NCBI RefSeq assembly: GCF_014696065.1
Contig: NZ_JACJPL010000024.1
Coordinates: 62,001-126,000, forward strand
Origin: Leptolyngbya sp. FACHB-261
Lineage (GTDB): Bacteria; Cyanobacteriota; Cyanobacteriia; FACHB-261
Length of the DNA: 64,000 bases
Direction: 5' to 3'
Each line of letters starts with the position of its first letter. Position 1 is the stretch's first letter. This document shows, in pieces, positions 37,739 through 46,327 of this stretch. Position numbers and translations under genes: made by a program. The notes under the pieces are model-generated. The model had not been told where the DNA came from, did no database searches, and was given only the letters and a program-made list of their open reading frames with translations.

Positions 37739-38698
37739 TCAAGCTTTAACTAATTCGCGTAACACTTCATCAACGCTGCGCGGTTGCCAGCCCAATTCTT
37801 GACGAGCTTTGTCCGCTTTAACGCGCACAAGGCGGTCGTAGAGATAGTGGACTCGTTCCCGGCTGGCGGGAGGCTGCCAGTTAAAGGCTCGGCCTATAGG
37901 GTCTAGTAAGTACCCCAAGCTACGAACCAGAAATTCCGGCAACTCATAAGCAGGCGCGGGTACGCCGGAGTATCGAGCTAGACCCTGAAACATTTCGCGG
38001 GTGGTTAGCTCACCGGCTGAGAGGATATACCAGGCACCGGGTTGTCCACGTTCGGCAGCTAGAATCATGCCCTGCGCCAGGTCATCTACGTGGACGATGC
38101 CTGTGAGGCGGTCTCCACCCGCCAGAACCTTGAGTTGTCCTTTAAGAAATCGCTGTAGCACTGGACCAAAGTGAGGGTCGCCAGGACCGAAGATGCCTGA
38201 GGGCATGACGCTCACAGTCCAAAAACCTTGAGATGCAAATTGATCAACAAGTTGTTGGGCTTCGAGTTTAGTTCGGTCATAAACCGAGGAAAAACCAACT
38301 TGGGTGCGCTGGTAGGTCTCATCCACTGCTTCGCCCCTAGTATCGCCAAACACACCAATCGTGCTGCAATAGACCAGCTTGGTAACACTGGCTGTCTTGG
38401 CAACTTCGAGCACAGCACGAGTGCCCTCAAGGTTAACGCGCTCCATCTCAGCTGCGTTAACAACCCCAATTTCTACATAAGCAGCTGTGTGAAAAACGAT
38501 CTCTACACCAGTCATCGCTTCACGTAAAGCCTCATGGTTGGTGAGGTCACCTTTAACCAGTTTGAGCTTTAAATCGGCCAAAGATTGAAGGTTACTGGTC
38601 GGACGGACGAAGCCAATAACTTCATGCCCTTGAGCCAACAGTAGACGCACTAAATGAGAGCCAGTAAAGCCATTAGCGCCCGTCACTAGTGCTTTCAT
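37739..38698 (-). CDS. Extended short-chain dehydrogenase/epimerase (HpnA- or CerR-like)
   Basis: A 319-residue extended SDR. The nucleotide motif TGANGFTGSHLVRLLLAQGH (GxxGxxG) starts at about residue 6, the catalytic pair is YDRTKLEAQQLV (YxxxK, about 138-149), and STIGVFGD precedes it. It resembles dihydroflavonol reductases, hopanoid-associated HpnA and the NAD-dependent ceramide reductase CerR. Its ATG overlaps the stop of the upstream acyltransferase-like gene in ATGA, so the two are translationally coupled. The coupling and the oxoamine synthase 3 kb away favour reduction of a 3-keto lipid, but a sugar-epimerase role is equally allowed by sequence. Confidence 0.85.
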   Translation of the reverse strand: MKALVTGANGFTGSHLVRLLLAQGHEVIGFVRPTSNLQSLADLKLKLVKGDLTNHEALREAMTGVEIVFHTAAYVEIGVVNAAEMERVNLEGTRAVLEVAKTASVTKLVYCSTIGVFGDTRGEAVDETYQRTQVGFSSVYDRTKLEAQQLVDQFASQGFWTVSVMPSGIFGPGDPHFGPVLQRFLKGQLKVLAGGDRLTGIVHVDDLAQGMILAAERGQPGAWYILSAGELTTREMFQGLARYSGVPAPAYELPEFLVRSLGYLLDPIGRAFNWQPPASRERVHYLYDRLVRVKADKARQELGWQPRSVDEVLRELVKA

Positions 38699-39840
38699 AG
38701 GGCTTTTTCGTAGATGCGATAAGTTTTGTGGACCTGGCCGCCCGAGGCTTCAATCAGCTTACGCGAAGGCCAGTTATCTTCCCAGACCCAAGAGAGTTCG
38801 GCCCGCTGGTACTTCTTACCGCCTTGGCCACCCTGGGTCAGAATCAGGTAAACCAGCGCCAGAGGGACCATCTTGCGACGGTATTCTGGCAAAGCTGTCA
38901 CGATCATCACCCGGCCTTGGTTGATCGTGCGACGGTACCAGAGAAATTTGAGCGTTCCCCACCAGCCGAGACGACCGTTGAGGTGGCGCAGAACCAAGTT
39001 GTAGTCAGGGACCCCTAGGATCAGACCAATCATCTCGTTATTGCGGGCCGGGTCTTCAGCAATCCAGACACCATTGGGATCGATCAGGGCGCGCAGTTGT
39101 CGAGCTTCGCGCAGAAACTCAGCTTCTGTACGAGGACTGTAGCTCCAGTTATCAGCAAAGTTGGCGGTGAACAACTGGTAAATGCGGCGGCATTCGGCCT
39201 CAAACTGCTCCTGAGCGGTATCAATGCGCCGGAAGTTCAGGCCCGACTTGCGACCAACCTCGTAACCCCGCTTCAGAACCTCTGTAGGCGCAATATCCAG
39301 TGGCAAGATGTATGCAACTGCGTCTTTGGCCTTTTGCCAGCCCAGCCGTTCTAGAAACTGAGGGTAGTAAGGCGGGTTGTAGGGCATCATGAACATCGGC
39401 GGCGAGTCAAAGCCCTCTACCAAGAACAGGCAATTGTTGTGAGTAGATAGATCAATGGGCCCACGGACTCGCTCCATGCCCCGCTTGCGCAACCAATCCT
39501 GAGCTGCGTTCAAGAGAGTTTGGGCAACATCAAAATCTTCAACGCATTCAAAAAAGCCAAACAGACCGATATTGCAACCCTCTTTTTCGATCAGCCGCCG
39601 ATTGATTGCAGGGACAATCCGTCCTAGCACCTGCCCATCCCGGACGGCCAGTAATCGCTCCAATTCGCCGTATTCGAAGAAGGGATTATCAGCTGCAAAG
39701 TTCTCGGCCACACCGCTGCGTAAGGGCGGTACCCAGTTGGCATCCCCTTGATAGATTCGGGCTGGCAAATCCAAAAAGGCCTGCTCATCCTGGGAAGTAC
39801 TCACATAGCGGACCTCGATCGGCGTGCCAATCGTTTGCAT
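38695..39840 (-). CDS. GNAT-like acyltransferase family protein (YghO/bCerS-type candidate)
   Basis: A 381-residue protein of a GNAT-superfamily group. Landmarks are ANWVPPLRSGVAENF, VLGRIVPAINRRLIEKEG, IGLFGFFECVEDFDVAQTLL, RVRGPIDLSTHNNCLFLVEG and PYYPQFLERLGWQKAKDA. A double GNAT fold is likely, with the second half ending VLRHLNGRLGWWGTLKFL and RAELSWVWEDNW. Proteins of this kind are annotated as N-acetyltransferases, and bacterial ceramide synthase (bCerS) is also described as a GNAT-type protein. A role in transferring a fatty acyl group to an amine is therefore plausible. It is coupled (ATGA overlap) to the SDR gene. The family link is from memory, and the acyl-transfer role is inference. 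Confidence 0.7.
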   Translation of the reverse strand: MQTIGTPIEVRYVSTSQDEQAFLDLPARIYQGDANWVPPLRSGVAENFAADNPFFEYGELERLLAVRDGQVLGRIVPAINRRLIEKEGCNIGLFGFFECVEDFDVAQTLLNAAQDWLRKRGMERVRGPIDLSTHNNCLFLVEGFDSPPMFMMPYNPPYYPQFLERLGWQKAKDAVAYILPLDIAPTEVLKRGYEVGRKSGLNFRRIDTAQEQFEAECRRIYQLFTANFADNWSYSPRTEAEFLREARQLRALIDPNGVWIAEDPARNNEMIGLILGVPDYNLVLRHLNGRLGWWGTLKFLWYRRTINQGRVMIVTALPEYRRKMVPLALVYLILTQGGQGGKKYQRAELSWVWEDNWPSRKLIEASGGQVHKTYRIYEKAL

Positions 39841-39991
39841 AAAGAGGTCAAGATAGCTGTGGCAATGATTGTACCGTTCTCAGGCTAAGCGATAAATTTC
39901 CCAGTCATTGATTAGGATCAGACGAACAAACCGTTACAGTGCTGAAGAGCCGTTTTATATGGCTTACCTGCCCCTAGTCTTGGAGCTTTGA

Positions 39992-41566
39992 ATGCGTGTA
40001 TTGCTGCTCTATCCGCAATTTCCCCAATCATTTTGGTCGTTTGACAAAGCACTAGAGCTGATTGGGCGCAAGGTTTCGCTGCCCCCATTGGGGCTGATTA
40101 CAGTCGCCGCGATTCTGCCTCAAACTTGGGAATTTCGCCTGGTAGACCGCAATGTTCGGGCTGAAACAGAAGCAGATTGGGCCTGGGCGGACTTGGTGAT
40201 CCTCTCCGGCATGATCGTGCAGAAGCCAGACCTGTTGCATCTAATTCGTGAAGCTAAGCGGCGAGGTAAGCCGGTTGCAGTAGGTGGTCCCTACGCAACG
40301 TCGGTGCCAGGACCAATCGAGGAGGCAGGTGCCGATTTTTTGGTTTTGGATGAGGGTGAGATTACCCTGCCCCTGTTCGTTGAAGCGCTGGCGCAAGGTG
40401 CAACCTCAGGCGTGTTTCGGGCAGATGGCGAAAAGCCGGATGTGACAGGGACGCCCGTTCCTCGCTTTGATTTGCTAGACCTGAATGCCTACACGGAAAT
40501 GTCCGTCCAGTTCTCGCGCGGCTGTCCATTTCAGTGTGAATTCTGCGACATCATCGTGCTCTACGGGCGTAAGCCTCGAACTAAAGCGCCAAAACAACTG
40601 ATCGCAGAATTGCAAGCGCTCTATGACCTAGGCTGGCGACGCTCGGTGTTTTTAGTGGATGACAACTTCATTGGCAACAAGCGTAATGTCAAATTGCTGC
40701 TGCGAGAGTTAGGTCCCTGGATGGCAGAGCGTCAATATCCATTCCGTCTTGCAACCGAAGCGTCAGTTGACTTAGCTCAAGATGAAGAGTTGTTAGACCT
40801 GATGGTACATGCCAACTTCAGTGCTGTATTTTTGGGCATTGAAACACCAGATACTGACAGCTTGTCAGTTACACAAAAGTTTCAAAATACACGCAATTCC
40901 TTAGTGGAATCGGTACAAACCATCAACCGAGCTGGATTGAGTGTGATGGCCGGTTTTATTTTGGGTTTTGACGGTGAGAAAGCAGGCGCAGGCCAGCGAA
41001 TCATCGATTTTGTTGAAGCCACGGCAATTCCCAAAGCCATGTTTGGCATGTTACAAGCATTGCCCAATACCGCCCTGTGGCAGCGCTTGCAGCGAGAGGG
41101 ACGTTTATTGGAAGAGAAGCAGGAAACCCAGGGCCACCAGATGACCCTGATGAACTTTATTCCCACCCGCTCGCCTGAGGAGTTAGCTCGCGAGTATGCC
41201 AATTGCTTCTGGGAACTCTACGAACCCAAACGTTATTTGGCTCGTGTTTACCGCCACTTTATCAACATGCGGCCCGCACCTCACAAGATACCCTTACGCA
41301 TGCTAGAACCCATTGAGGTTCGAGCTGTCTTGACTATCTTTTGGCGGCAGGGAATTTGGCGCAGTACTCGCTATCAATTCTGGCAACAATTATTCTCGAT
41401 TCTGAAACACAATTCAGCTTTGTTTGTGCCTTACTTGAGCAACTGCGCCTTACTCGAACACTTCATTCAGTATCGCGAGATTGTGCGTGATGAAATCGAA
41501 GTCCAATTAGCCCAACACTTAACCGAACAGTCGGAACTACCTCAACCGACCGCCTTGGCCAGATAA
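39992..41566 (+). CDS. B12-binding radical SAM protein (DUF4070, HpnP-like)
   Basis: A 524-residue protein. An N-terminal cobalamin-binding Rossmann domain (about 1-140; PLGLITVAAILPQTWEFRLV) precedes a radical SAM core with the cluster motif RGCPFQCEFCDIIVLYGRKP (CxxxCxxC, about 175-194), and a DUF4070 C-terminal domain follows. HpnP, which methylates hopanoids at C-2, belongs to this group and has similar length, but many cyanobacterial paralogs have other roles. It sits between the acyltransferase/SDR pair and the oxoamine synthase, which suggests lipid modification. hpnP is not asserted. Confidence 0.88.
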   Translation: MRVLLLYPQFPQSFWSFDKALELIGRKVSLPPLGLITVAAILPQTWEFRLVDRNVRAETEADWAWADLVILSGMIVQKPDLLHLIREAKRRGKPVAVGGPYATSVPGPIEEAGADFLVLDEGEITLPLFVEALAQGATSGVFRADGEKPDVTGTPVPRFDLLDLNAYTEMSVQFSRGCPFQCEFCDIIVLYGRKPRTKAPKQLIAELQALYDLGWRRSVFLVDDNFIGNKRNVKLLLRELGPWMAERQYPFRLATEASVDLAQDEELLDLMVHANFSAVFLGIETPDTDSLSVTQKFQNTRNSLVESVQTINRAGLSVMAGFILGFDGEKAGAGQRIIDFVEATAIPKAMFGMLQALPNTALWQRLQREGRLLEEKQETQGHQMTLMNFIPTRSPEELAREYANCFWELYEPKRYLARVYRHFINMRPAPHKIPLRMLEPIEVRAVLTIFWRQGIWRSTRYQFWQQLFSILKHNSALFVPYLSNCALLEHFIQYREIVRDEIEVQLAQHLTEQSELPQPTALAR

Positions 41567-41574
41567 GACTGAAA

Positions 41575-41602
41575 GGGCACAGGAGAAAAATCTCCTGTGC
41601 CC
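41575..41602. terminator. Perfect 12-bp hairpin, bidirectional terminator
   Basis: GGGCACAGGAGA pairs with TCTCCTGTGCCC around AAAA. It lies 9 bases past the radical SAM stop and between convergent genes. The flanking T content is modest on both strands. Confidence 0.75.
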
Positions 41603-41614
41603 CAGCTCATTTGA

Positions 41615-41654
41615 CTGAAACGTTTCAGCAATATTTCAGCATTAGTTCAGCACT
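41615..41654. repeat. 14-bp palindrome followed by three 11-bp direct repeats
   Basis: CTGAAACGTTTCAG (41615-41628) is a perfect palindrome. GTTTCAGCAAT, ATTTCAGCATT and AGTTCAGCACT follow with an 11-base period from 41622. The location is between two gene ends, which is unusual for an operator. Confidence 0.65.
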
Positions 41655-41680
41655 GATTTTTAGGCACTACTTCTAAGCCT

Positions 41681-42961
41681 CTAAGCACTGACCGTTTCCC
41701 GATAGAACAGTGCCCGAGTAGAAACCAGACCATCCACGAGCTGGTCTATTTCTTCGCGGGTATGCAGGGCATTGACCGTGATCCGGATACGAGGCTTGGC
41801 GATAAACCAAATCGCGGAAGCCCAGATTCCCTTGTCTTCGAGCAAACGCCGGGCAAATTCCTTCGGGTTAATGCCCTCAGGTAACAGGACCGGCACAACA
41901 TTGGTTTCGCCCAGGGCGATGAAATCAGACGTCGCTAGACACTGGCGTAGATAGCGCGTATTCTCTTGCAACCGCTGGACCAGCTGCGGCGAGCGGCGCA
42001 GTTTGCGAACGCTCTCAAGCGCCGCAGCCGTTAGCGGTGGCGCTAGCGAGATCGTGCCAATCGAGGTTGGAGACACATTCAGCAGCGGCACCAGTTCTTT
42101 GACGTGGGTACTGATGGCGGCACCAGCTGAGGCGGCGAACTTGGAGAAGGTGGTCATGATCAATGGGTTAATGCCCATCTCAACCGCTTTATAGGGATCC
42201 AAGTCAAAGTGATCGTAGATGCCACCACCATAGGAGCCGAGCGACCCAGAAGCGTGAGCTTCATCCATGAGTAGGGTGCTGCCTTCATAGTGGCTCAAGA
42301 CTTGCAGCATGTCGGGCAGAGGTGCGACATCGCCGTCCATCGAGAACACGGCATCGGTCACGACTAGAATGCGGTCGTCAGGACGGGCGTAGCGCTTGAG
42401 CTTACGGGCCAGGTCGTCCACGTCACAGTGACGATAGGGTTTCACCCGCACTCGCGGACTATTGCCGAATACCTTACCTGAGCGTGTATTGGCATTGACA
42501 ACTGCCGAAATGATGCAACCGTGGTTGAGCACATCTGACAGAATCAGCGTTTCGCGCTCGTTGTGGAAACCGGGCACCGGAATTGCTAGATGGCAGAAGG
42601 CATCCATCACCGCCTGCATCGCCATCCAGGCATTGATGAACAGTTGCGTGTAGGGCAGGCGCTTGAAGCTTGAAATCTCTTGTTCGAGTTGACGGTGTAG
42701 ATCGATGCGCCCACTGAGCACCGAGCAGGAGCTATTGGAGGGACCGTAGTGAGTGGTTGCGTCGATTGCCGCTTGCTTAACATCCTCATCGACTGCAAAT
42801 CCCAAGATGTCGTTGGTGCAGAAGGTTAGGACCGTACGCCGAAAGCCGGTTGCAGCGTCTTCAACCTCGACCTGGTTGCCCTGCCTACCGTGGCAAATGT
42901 ATTCATCAGGAGCTAGCCCACTCTGTAGCCAGGCTTGGACGTAATCCTTAACAACTTGCAC
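41681..42961 (-). CDS. Alpha-oxoamine synthase (serine palmitoyltransferase-like)
   Basis: A 426-residue PLP enzyme of the alpha-oxoamine synthase family (Kbl, BioF, HemA, Spt). Seen are TFCTNDILGF, YGPSNSSCSVLSGRIDLHRQ, ILSDVLNHGCI, LMDEAHASGSLGSYGGG and the PLP lysine in MTTFSKFAASAGAAIS. The ending is PRIRITVNALHTREEIDQLV. These enzymes join an amino acid with an acyl-CoA and release CO2; Spt uses serine and palmitoyl-CoA for sphingolipids. Substrate specificity cannot be read here. GTG 42961 with GAGGAG 8 bases upstream is preferred; TTG 43015 is also open. Biotin or heme roles are less likely given the lipid-type neighbours. Confidence 0.85.
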   Translation of the reverse strand: MQVVKDYVQAWLQSGLAPDEYICHGRQGNQVEVEDAATGFRRTVLTFCTNDILGFAVDEDVKQAAIDATTHYGPSNSSCSVLSGRIDLHRQLEQEISSFKRLPYTQLFINAWMAMQAVMDAFCHLAIPVPGFHNERETLILSDVLNHGCIISAVVNANTRSGKVFGNSPRVRVKPYRHCDVDDLARKLKRYARPDDRILVVTDAVFSMDGDVAPLPDMLQVLSHYEGSTLLMDEAHASGSLGSYGGGIYDHFDLDPYKAVEMGINPLIMTTFSKFAASAGAAISTHVKELVPLLNVSPTSIGTISLAPPLTAAALESVRKLRRSPQLVQRLQENTRYLRQCLATSDFIALGETNVVPVLLPEGINPKEFARRLLEDKGIWASAIWFIAKPRIRITVNALHTREEIDQLVDGLVSTRALFYRETVSA

Positions 42962-43303: not shown

Positions 43304-44518
43304 ATGGTTTCTATTGCCCGCAAAAATCTGCTCGAAGATTTGCCTCGGTTACTGGTTGCTCAGGCTGGCATCACCTTTGCGGTTAGCTTGATCGGCGTCC
43401 AGACTGGCATTCTCAACGGTTTTACCAATTCGGTCACCTTAGTGATCGACAACTCCCAAGCTGACATCTGGGTGACCTCCAAGGACTTTCTACACTTAAG
43501 TCTGACGCTACCACTGCCAGCTGAACGGGTAAACCAGGCACGAGCAGTGCCCGGCGTCGCCAAAGCTGAACCCCTGCTCATCAACAACACGCTCTGGCGA
43601 GACCCACAGGGCAAGATCGAGGCGGTGCAGATGATTGGCTACGAGCCAGATGCTGAGCTGTTTAAGCCCTGGGATCTGATCGGCGGCGCCCAACCCTCAA
43701 TCGTTGAGCAGGAGCACGCGATCATTATCGATGACACTAACACCAAGTTATTAGGAGTTAACAACATTGGCGACGTCGTGCAGGTCGGTGGGGTCACGGC
43801 CAAGGTTAAAGCCTTCACCCACGGTGTGTACTCTTTTGTTGCTAGCCCCTTCGTGTTTACGTCTCTTGAGAGTGGCCGGGATTTTCTAAGTTCTCGAACC
43901 ATTCCAGCCTCGTCGACCCAGAGTACCTCATTGCTAGAGGCATCCCGGCTGGCTACCGAAGCCCAAAAGGCTTCTTCTGGCCCAATCCCGATCCCCTACA
44001 TCCTGATCCGAGCCCAACCAGGGCAAGACCTACAGCAGCTCAAGCAAGCACTCGAACAGGCCCTACCCGATACCCAGGCTCACACCCGTGCCGAGTTGTC
44101 TGAGCTGACCCAACGCTACTGGCGAGACGAAACCGGCATCGGCTTCGTGTTGAGCTTGGGAGCAGGTCTGGGTTTGGTGGTGGGTACGGTCATTGTCGGC
44201 CAGGTGCTTTACGCCTCGGCGGTCGACCACATCCGGGAATTTGGCACGCTCAAGGCCATGGGAGCTTCCAACTGGTACATCTACCGGGTGATCGGGGAGC
44301 AAGCGCTGTGGATGGCAGTTTTGGGGTTTGCCTCCGGCATGGGCGTCTGCTATGGCATTGGTACTTGGGCACAGGCGACCCAGGGCATTGCCATTCTGAT
44401 CAGTCCTGCCACAGCGGCAGGAGTGTTTGGGGTCACCGTGCTGATGTGTGTGGGTTCAGCCGTGTTCGCCATTCAGAAAGTTACCCAGGTCGATCCAGTG
44501 ATTGTGTTCAAAGCCTGA
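43304..44518 (+). CDS. FtsX/MacB-type ABC permease (DevC-like)
   Basis: A 404-residue permease. One helix at about 15-37 (LLVAQAGITFAVSLIGVQTG) precedes a large extracytoplasmic domain (about 45-275), then three helices near the end (GIGFVLSLGAGLGLVVGTVI, LWMAVLGFASGMGVCYGIG and AAGVFGVTVLMCVGSAVFAI). REFGTLKAMGASNWYIYRVI is the FtsX coupling-helix motif. DevC-type proteins export glycolipids or other envelope compounds with an ATPase (DevA) and a membrane-fusion protein (DevB). Neither partner is adjacent here, so an ATPase from elsewhere is needed. The GT39 gene follows by 63 bases. Confidence 0.85.
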   Translation: MVSIARKNLLEDLPRLLVAQAGITFAVSLIGVQTGILNGFTNSVTLVIDNSQADIWVTSKDFLHLSLTLPLPAERVNQARAVPGVAKAEPLLINNTLWRDPQGKIEAVQMIGYEPDAELFKPWDLIGGAQPSIVEQEHAIIIDDTNTKLLGVNNIGDVVQVGGVTAKVKAFTHGVYSFVASPFVFTSLESGRDFLSSRTIPASSTQSTSLLEASRLATEAQKASSGPIPIPYILIRAQPGQDLQQLKQALEQALPDTQAHTRAELSELTQRYWRDETGIGFVLSLGAGLGLVVGTVIVGQVLYASAVDHIREFGTLKAMGASNWYIYRVIGEQALWMAVLGFASGMGVCYGIGTWAQATQGIAILISPATAAGVFGVTVLMCVGSAVFAIQKVTQVDPVIVFKA

Positions 44519-44581
44519 TGCAGTGAGTTGCCACTGAATCCGGTAAAGTCATCCCCAGTGGGTGTGTGGGAGCTTAGAGTC

Positions 44582-46327
44582 ATGTCGGTCAACCGAGTTG
44601 GTCGTAAGCCTTGGGCCTTGCAGGATGGTCTTGGGAGCACTCAGCGACCGGTGCCTGAGCATCTGCTGGCATTCACTTCTCTGTTGGGGCTACTGCTACT
44701 TTGCTGGGTCGCCTTTGGCTGGCAGCTGGGTGATATTGGCCTGATTGACGAGACTGAACCCCTGTTTGCAGAGGCCGCTCGTCAGATGCTGCGCACAGGC
44801 GATTTCATCACCCCCTATTTCAATGGTGTTACGCGCTTCGACAAGCCGCCCTTGATTTACTGGGGTATGGCTTTGGCCTATCAGTTGGTGGGCGTGAATG
44901 AGTGGGGCGTACGCTTACCGTCGGCGCTAGCAGGTACCGGGCTAACCCTTGGCGTGTTCTGGACGCTGCGCACCTTCACAGGCTCCTGGCGCGCAGCCTG
45001 GGTTGGGGCTGTAGTAACGGCACTATCGCCAATGGCCTTGGCCTGGGGACGCATTGGCGTTTCCGATATGCTTCTATGCGCCTGCATCGGCGCGACCATG
45101 CTCTCGTTTTTTGTGGGCTATGTGCGTCAATCCCGACTGGCTTACCTGAGCCTCTACGCCTGGATGAGCTTGGGCATTTTAACCAAAGGGCCGGTTGCGA
45201 TCGTGTTGCCAGCCTTGGCCATTGCCCTCTTCCTAGCCTTAGTGGGGCAATGGCGGCAAGTTCGCTCAGAGTTGCACCTGCTTCAGGGCAGCCTGATTGT
45301 GCTGCTGCTGGCCCTGCCCTGGTACCTGGCAGTTACTGCGATCAATGGTGAGGCGTTCATTGACAAATTTTTTGGCTACCACAATATCGACCGCTTCGTC
45401 TCAGTGGTGAACCGCCACCAGGCACCCCTGTATTTCTATATCCCAGTGATCCTGATTGGCTTTCTGCCTTGGTCTCCCTTTTTGCCTCTGGCTATTGCCC
45501 GCTTGCGCTTCTGGCGGTTAGGCGAATGGCGGACTCAACCGCGCTCGGAACACCTGGGCCTGTATGCGCTCTGCTGGTTTGGCGTGGTGCTGGTTTTCTT
45601 TACGGTGTCAGTCACCAAACTGCCCAGCTACATGTTGCCGCTCATTCCCGCCATTGCCTTGCTGCTGGGGTTGCTTTGGCGAGACGAAACGAGTCTCAAA
45701 AGTCGAGGCTTCCAAATTTCAGCCTTTGCAGCAGTGGGGGTCTACGCACTTTTGGCGGTTCTGAGTTGGCACAGTCTGAACTGGCTGCCTCCTGATCCCT
45801 GGATGCCCAATCTACAAAAGGAGCTAGCTCAGCAAAACTTAAATTTGACGGCAGCCTTAATCTGGGCTGGCATCGCGGTCCTTGGAGTATTAGCCGTGCT
45901 CTGGCGACAAGGCCGTTTTTGGTTCCCAATGGGCTGCAGTTTAGGATTTGCCGCTTTAATTGCCTTGGTGATTCTACCGACGCTTACAACTCTAGATTTG
46001 CAGCGTCAACTGCCTCTACGTCAACTGGCAGTTGTGATTGAAGACTATCAACAAATGCACCCTGAACAAGCTTCGGACCTAATCGTTTTGGGGCCAGTGG
46101 TTAAGCCCAGCGTGGTGTTTTACGCAAAGCGTAATGCTCGGTTTCTGCAGATATCGAAGCAACTCCGTGCCCGATACTTAAACCGTCCACATCCAGACCT
46201 ACTGGTTCTGGGATCAGAAAAAGACCTACGGCTGTCCCGCTTGCGTCCAGACGAGTATGAACCTCTGGCAACTGCGGGCTACTATCGCCTAGTTCGGGTC
46301 TATGCACCTCAAGCCAAGGAGAGGTAG
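44582..46327 (+). CDS. GT39/ArnT-like membrane glycosyltransferase
   Basis: A 581-residue polytopic protein of the PMT/ArnT family. The first loop IDETEPLFAEAARQMLRTGD carries the acidic motif typical of GT-C enzymes, followed by FNGVTRFDKPPLIYWGMALA and about 12 helices. A C-terminal soluble domain (about 490-581) follows. Such enzymes move a sugar from a polyprenyl-phosphate carrier onto lipid or protein at the outer face of the plasma membrane. ATG 44582 has GGGAG upstream. Together with the permease before it, it suggests a glycolipid or envelope-modification role; acceptor and sugar are unknown. Confidence 0.9.
   Translation: MSVNRVGRKPWALQDGLGSTQRPVPEHLLAFTSLLGLLLLCWVAFGWQLGDIGLIDETEPLFAEAARQMLRTGDFITPYFNGVTRFDKPPLIYWGMALAYQLVGVNEWGVRLPSALAGTGLTLGVFWTLRTFTGSWRAAWVGAVVTALSPMALAWGRIGVSDMLLCACIGATMLSFFVGYVRQSRLAYLSLYAWMSLGILTKGPVAIVLPALAIALFLALVGQWRQVRSELHLLQGSLIVLLLALPWYLAVTAINGEAFIDKFFGYHNIDRFVSVVNRHQAPLYFYIPVILIGFLPWSPFLPLAIARLRFWRLGEWRTQPRSEHLGLYALCWFGVVLVFFTVSVTKLPSYMLPLIPAIALLLGLLWRDETSLKSRGFQISAFAAVGVYALLAVLSWHSLNWLPPDPWMPNLQKELAQQNLNLTAALIWAGIAVLGVLAVLWRQGRFWFPMGCSLGFAALIALVILPTLTTLDLQRQLPLRQLAVVIEDYQQMHPEQASDLIVLGPVVKPSVVFYAKRNARFLQISKQLRARYLNRPHPDLLVLGSEKDLRLSRLRPDEYEPLATAGYYRLVRVYAPQAKER

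Follow-up and report, generated by a model that had tools for sequence, protein, structure and literature searches.

The window analysed here, a 64,000-nucleotide stretch of DNA from Leptolyngbya sp. FACHB-261 (contig NZ_JACJPL010000024.1, positions 62,001 to 126,000; all positions below are those of the window), carries on its reverse strand three genes of the kinds found together in bacterial ceramide loci. One of them (37739–38698) encodes a 319-amino-acid extended short-chain dehydrogenase/reductase (SDR), detected by the Pfam models Epimerase/3Beta_HSD and proposed to be a 3-keto reductase. It overlaps the gene for a 381-amino-acid GNAT acyltransferase (38695–39840), assigned to the bCerS/YghO (CC_1154) family by homology, hhalign, tree and predicted fold, which is proposed to donate a second acyl chain to an amine. 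The four bases ATGA (38695–38698) are common to the GNAT stop and the SDR start (...ccctATGAaagc...), an arrangement likely to couple the translation of both genes. The third gene (41681–42961), which matches Pfam Aminotran_1_2, encodes an alpha-oxoamine synthase (AOS), the proposed role of which is to join a fatty acyl thioester to a small amino acid, serine or a different one. Its open frame spans 43015–41681; the likely start, however, is a GTG at 42961, preceded by a gaggag site and yielding a protein of 426 amino acids, and all 36 of the 36 AOS relatives extracted from named genomes have a GTG start at the same point. The ∼1.84 kb between the AOS stop and the GNAT start hold a divergent B12/radical SAM gene. 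The coordinates, overlap and spacing agree with the initial annotation, which had read the three proteins as a serine palmitoyltransferase (SPT), the ceramide synthase bCerS and the reductase CerR, together forming a ceramide pathway.

The acyltransferase, the oxoamine synthase and the reductase

The E. coli and Sphingomonas loci were used as yardsticks for ceramide loci, being tied to Caulobacter CC_1154 and CC_1164 by a published study, in which CC_1154 and yghO (ECD_02850) are the same gene, aca, of dihydroceramide loci (PMC9386255). The GNAT protein of the window was 29.8% identical to E. coli YghO over 379 columns (E = 1e-60) and 28.2% identical to Sphingomonas bCerS (E = 2e-49), the homology being full length; identity reached 35% with the Roseomonas protein, 35% with that of Rubrobacter and 34% with that of Streptomyces. 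Comparison with hhalign gave E = 2.4e-42. In the tree, a branch with 100/100 support united the cyanobacterial GNAT with those of Sphingomonas, E. coli, Roseomonas and actinobacteria against the cyanobacterial paralogs; within it the cyanobacterial clade was sister to the proteobacterial group, not nested in it. When searched by sequence against Pfam, NCBIfam and the PDB, the window GNAT had no match at 0.001, and across its family only weak or marginal matches to the Pfam model Acetyltransf_1, and no solved relative, were obtained by sequence. Its structural model (pLDDT 82.5) has a tandem-GNAT fold resembling MAB_4324 (Z 16.8, root-mean-square deviation 4.4, 304 residues aligned), MshD (Z 16.2, deviation 4.5, 278 aligned) and N-myristoyltransferase (Z 11.7, deviation 5.9, 278 aligned). 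The protein is thus a full-length member of the bCerS/YghO family, as had been supposed, and is predicted from its sequence to N-acylate a long-chain base.

Two further observations concern this family. Some cyanobacteria have a distant second GNAT family (25–30% identity; loci L020, L021, L038 and L039), mostly alongside the main one. On a Roseomonas plasmid (L121:225-12019), a bCerS-family gene labelled dATP pyrophosphohydrolase lies with genes for a sterol desaturase, LptF/G-like proteins, an acylglycerol kinase and a CDP-alcohol transferase, a grouping that resembles a ceramide modification cluster.

In the AOS, alignment showed that the equivalents of Sphingomonas SPT residues K265 (in a TFSK motif), H159 (the ring-stacking histidine), D231, H234, S264 and R390 are kept; the intact pyridoxal phosphate lysine of the initial annotation is present together with all the other cofactor-contacting residues that were compared. 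The family profile of the AOS, which has relatives of 65–76% identity, found its best solved match in the Sphingobacterium SPT 3a2b (156 bits), followed by Kbl (138), ThAOS (130), human SPTLC2 (125), the cysteate acyltransferase 28eh (123) and E. coli BioF (100). In the tree the AOS formed a clade of its own with 100/100 support and a branch length of 2.76; its AlphaFold model was poor (pLDDT 65), and the fold matches confirm the superfamily only. At the position of Sphingomonas SPT R378 the protein has a Trp, two insertions set it apart from all other AOSs in the alignment, and the loop that precedes its R390-equivalent Arg is shortened. These features of a distinct subfamily, together with the presence of 28eh among the profile matches, would suit an enzyme that takes an amino acid such as cysteate or glutamate, in which case the same three steps would lead to a product that is not a sphingolipid, namely a sulfonolipid or some other N-acylated aminolipid; the GH3 proteins encoded near some GNAT genes of this family likewise match OlsH, an aminolipid enzyme, weakly. 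However, the best profile match is an SPT, SPTs themselves vary at R378 (R, L or V), and the list of recurrent neighbours (see below) holds no hint of cysteate synthesis, so this outcome is considered unlikely.

The SDR has the motifs TGANGFTG and YDRTK, and in the alignment the glycine motif TG..GFTG and the residues Y140 and K144 are invariant. Its best NCBIfam model is HpnA (222 bits, cut-off 368), with SdmB at 158 bits, also below its cut-off; another protein of the genome passes the HpnA model with 466 bits, and the CerR-like SDRs of Sphingomonas, Rubrobacter and Streptomyces match HpnA best too. In the tree the SDR forms its own clade, nearest to the HpnA of the genome (90/91) and beside the CerR group. 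The protein begins directly at the Rossmann strand; CerR of Caulobacter is periplasmic (PMC11087976). An extended SDR with intact cofactor and YxxxK motifs, as first described, is therefore present, but its orthology with CerR is not established.

Distribution and gene neighbourhood in cyanobacteria

Co-occurrence was analysed in 213 cyanobacterial genomes of the class, each at least 95% complete. The GNAT gave strong matches in 79 of them; for the AOS the number was 78 and for the SDR 76, and 75 genomes had the complete trio. Both the AOS and the SDR were confined to GNAT-positive genomes, none being found in the other 134 (Fisher p = 2e-58 for AOS with GNAT, relatedness being ignored), and the families that include both states (f13, f16 and f26) obeyed the same presence/absence rule. 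In a second set, 22 genomes of one family, AOS and GNAT were both present in 15, both absent in five, and one occurred alone in two. Since the members of the trio lie far apart in many of the genomes that have it, the association goes beyond synteny. These results support the idea that AOS, GNAT and SDR constitute one functional set. Genome G076 (locus L147) has GNAT and SDR without an AOS of this subfamily; it may employ its BioF/Kbl-type AOS, or the pair there may be a relic.

The initial annotation had suggested looking for the trio in other cyanobacteria, and it was indeed found as an operon in many: a contiguous AOS-GNAT-SDR order on one strand is common in diverse lineages, mostly without the radical SAM gene. 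Of 80 named loci around the GNAT, 61 contained the SDR and 37 the AOS, and the four-base (−4) overlap between GNAT and SDR recurred in 31 of the 61 with an SDR. Unbiased clustering of 914 open reading frames around the GNAT revealed further recurrent partners. A Rieske oxygenase was encoded in 28 of the 37 AOS loci, usually directly upstream of the AOS, and a Rieske gene was also found near the AOS in 14 of 20 genomes in which AOS and GNAT lie apart. Major facilitator superfamily (MFS) proteins (20), DevA (20), DevC (18, one being that of this window) and a PF04116 fatty-acid hydroxylase (18) followed; lower counts were obtained for the radical SAM (10) and GH3 (8) genes. Polyketide synthases and non-ribosomal peptide synthetases were absent from these recurrent neighbours. 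Nine-gene clusters of ∼11 kb in Chlorogloea CCALA 695 (L062:1824-12219) and Vasconcelosia LEGE 07310 (L055:4056-14852) contain the fatty-acid hydroxylase, GH3, MFS, Rieske, AOS, GNAT, SDR, DevA and DevC genes. Gloeocapsopsis crepidinum LEGE 06123 and Calothrix parasitica NIES-267 are further culturable strains that carry the trio.

The only member of this accessory group in the window is DevC, a DevC/MacB-like ABC exporter permease (43304–44518, forward strand) that adjoins the AOS gene and is divergent from it. It matches Pfam FtsX and MacB_PCD, scores 152 bits against the DevC model (cut-off 290) and is a candidate subunit of a lipid exporter; elsewhere, 22 of 80 other loci had DevC or DevA close to the GNAT. 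A search confined to the window, the rest of the genome not being searched, found no Rieske, DevA, hydroxylase or GH3 gene other than an ABC match of 30%. Directly behind DevC, positions 44528–46327 encode an ArnT/PMT-like glycosyltransferase, which could glycosylate a lipid; it scores 158 bits with the model of the lipid A aminoarabinose transferase, the cut-off of which is 567.

The best model for the Rieske oxygenases is SdmA, a 4beta-methylsterol monooxygenase (227 bits, far below cut-off). Taken with the sub-threshold HpnA and SdmB scores of the SDR, this might mean that SDR and Rieske protein act on sterols or hopanoids (compare SdmB, SdmA and HpnA), AOS and GNAT being mere neighbours in an outer-membrane lipid region. 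Such an explanation is very unlikely, as the genome has a separate HpnA that passes its model, the CerR-like SDRs share the preference for HpnA, and the SDR is found only in genomes with AOS and GNAT, even where the genes are far apart.

The gene between AOS and GNAT (39992–41566, forward strand) encodes, according to Pfam, a B12-binding radical SAM protein with a DUF4070 domain. Ten of 81 stretches had this gene near the GNAT, and it was variously oriented in them. The broad family occurs in 176 of the 213 genomes, in several copies; because of this distribution, far wider than that of the trio, its involvement appears weak, the role of lipid modifier first suggested for it loses ground, and it was rejected as a core member of the set. 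Relatives with at least 72% identity were found only in genomes with the trio (29 of 29). The gene is at most sometimes involved, and this closer subgroup could be a lipid methylase or merely reflect shared ancestry.

Comparison with known systems

The ceramide genes of Rhodobacteria are spt, acpR, aasR, epi/cerR and aca/bcerS (in Caulobacter, CC_1162-1165 and CC_1154; in E. coli, ECD_02850-02854, five genes together). E. coli BL21 is one strain that possesses an spt locus. As in these bacteria, and as in the E. coli and Sphingomonas loci, an AOS, a bCerS-family GNAT and an SDR occur together in cyanobacteria; unlike in Rhodobacteria, the cyanobacterial AOS and SDR appear as separate lineages, the AOS bears its two insertions, and the set has Rieske, GH3, MFS and DevA/DevC partners in addition. 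Plasmids of Rubrobacter radiotolerans and Streptomyces sp. NBC_01001 have the same AOS-GNAT-SDR order, with GNATs 34–35% identical to that of the window, and these trios support the view that the three genes form a module of general occurrence in bacteria. In the trees, their AOSs cluster with known SPTs (96/87), as do their SDRs with members of the CerR group; the cyanobacterial proteins were not placed in either.

In the Streptomyces NBC_01001 plasmid operon (L128:4902-9428), the three genes overlap by four bases and are followed by a condensation-domain gene; in Streptomyces NBC_00158 (L129:1169-5206), a single protein, encoded beside a polyketide synthase, consists of an SDR fused to an AOS. 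AOS enzymes act in the synthesis of small secondary metabolites of the pyrrole, alkaloid or peptide type, and these two actinobacterial arrangements could be taken to mean that the cyanobacterial set makes such a compound and not a membrane lipid. This seems quite unlikely: the set occurs in about one-third of the sampled genomes with a highly similar AOS (65–75% identity), and its neighbours are typical of lipid metabolism and export, with no recurrent polyketide synthase or non-ribosomal peptide synthetase.

Two cyanobacterial systems were also compared. BioF of the Npun_R3567 type belongs to the same AOS superfamily and is 32% identical to the window AOS; it forms its own clade (100/99) and is present in almost all cyanobacteria, and it yielded no ketosphinganine in E. 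coli (PMC8895605). In roughly one locus in four the set is accompanied by DevC- or DevA-like genes, which recall the heterocyst glycolipid exporter DevBCA, but their scores fall below the family cut-offs and they are present in non-heterocystous strains too.

A proposed lipid pathway

With a probability of about two in three, we take the set to be a cyanobacterial version of the ceramide pathway known from other bacteria, giving a ceramide or a 1-deoxyceramide-type lipid, with export. The AOS would condense an amino acid (most likely serine, alanine and glycine being possible) and a long-chain acyl thioester, forming a 3-keto long-chain base. A second acyl chain would be added to the amine by the bCerS-family GNAT, and the SDR would reduce the 3-keto group, before or after N-acylation, to yield the ceramide or 1-deoxyceramide-type product. 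In many genomes the Rieske oxygenase and the fatty-acid hydroxylase may decorate this product, a GH3 ligase would perhaps attach a group to it or activate one, and the lipid might be carried toward the outer membrane by DevA/DevC.

To our knowledge, no genes for ceramides in cyanobacteria are known. Two ceramides have been described by chemical work on Scytonema julianum and Moorea producens (cited in PMC8895605), so that the novelty for cyanobacteria claimed in the initial annotation would lie in the genes and not in the compounds. A Scytonema metagenome-assembled genome carries AOS, GNAT and SDR. Belton et al. detected no sphingolipids in Nostoc punctiforme, in which they found one AOS only, a BioF (PMC8895605). 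Within the database-defined genus that includes Nostoc sp. WHI, one of the 53 genomes had the AOS described here, N. punctiforme being covered only via this genus; because of this near absence, that negative result probably neither tests the set nor bears on it. A Black Sea survey reporting Spt-like proteins in 38 to 40 phyla mentions cyanobacteria once in its main text, inside a reference (PMC11334938).

Several observations weigh against a ceramide pathway. The AOS falls below all the SPT cut-offs of NCBIfam (154/640, 147/500 and 106/670 bits), while the Sphingomonas SPT used as a yardstick passes its model (833/670). As a single sequence it matches bioF best (225 bits, below the cut-off of 426), and in the tree it sits on a long branch that is attached, with weak support (73/72), to cyanobacterial BioF; its union with the SPT clade is not rejected by the approximately unbiased (AU) test (p = 0.196). 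For the SDR, the analysis leans towards a place outside the CerR group, with a borderline AU p of 0.057 for their union. No dedicated acyl carrier protein or acyl-ACP synthetase gene, such as the acpR and aasR of Rhodobacteria, was seen beside the trio. Finally, AOS and GNAT are both missing from the two genomes that come closest to a plasmid gene of Moorena producens, and the ceramide reported from Moorea is therefore not explained by the set.

The preference for bioF might suggest that the AOS is a second BioF or Kbl of biotin or threonine metabolism, grouped with the other genes by accident. This is scarcely credible, since its score is far short of the bioF cut-off and a canonical BioF is encoded elsewhere in the genome, on which grounds the AOS was rejected as BioF; its occurrence with a bCerS-family protein in 78 of 79 genomes contradicts the idea as well. 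Because it lies below all cut-offs, has a family profile that favours SPT over Kbl and BioF, and forms a long-branch clade, the AOS is best placed in a separate subfamily that is compatible with SPT function, the substrate amino acid being a prediction from sequence. The original assignment as an SPT agrees with the profile match and the cofactor residues, but not with the SPT cut-offs or the single-sequence match. For the ceramide pathway as first claimed, a functional set of three genes with a GNAT of the bCerS family is supported, while the AOS as an SPT and the SDR as a CerR ortholog are not established.

More tentatively, and with odds a little short of even, the set may represent a widespread, undescribed class of N-acylated lipids, derived from the amino ketone that a separate AOS lineage would produce, with oxidation by Rieske and hydroxylase enzymes and export by a DevC-type system, in about one-third of the sampled cyanobacterial genomes. 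A genetic study of the question (PMC8895605) examined BioF in a genus nearly always devoid of this set. A defined set of genes, present in some and absent from others among close relatives, makes the question of cyanobacterial ceramides directly testable. If the interpretation as a variant ceramide pathway is true, it would add a class of lipid to the cyanobacterial membrane and would bring a major phylum, with a first enzyme distinct from that of other bacteria, into the range of the ceramide pathway; it would also matter for the use of sphingolipids as biomarkers in sediments and for host signalling.

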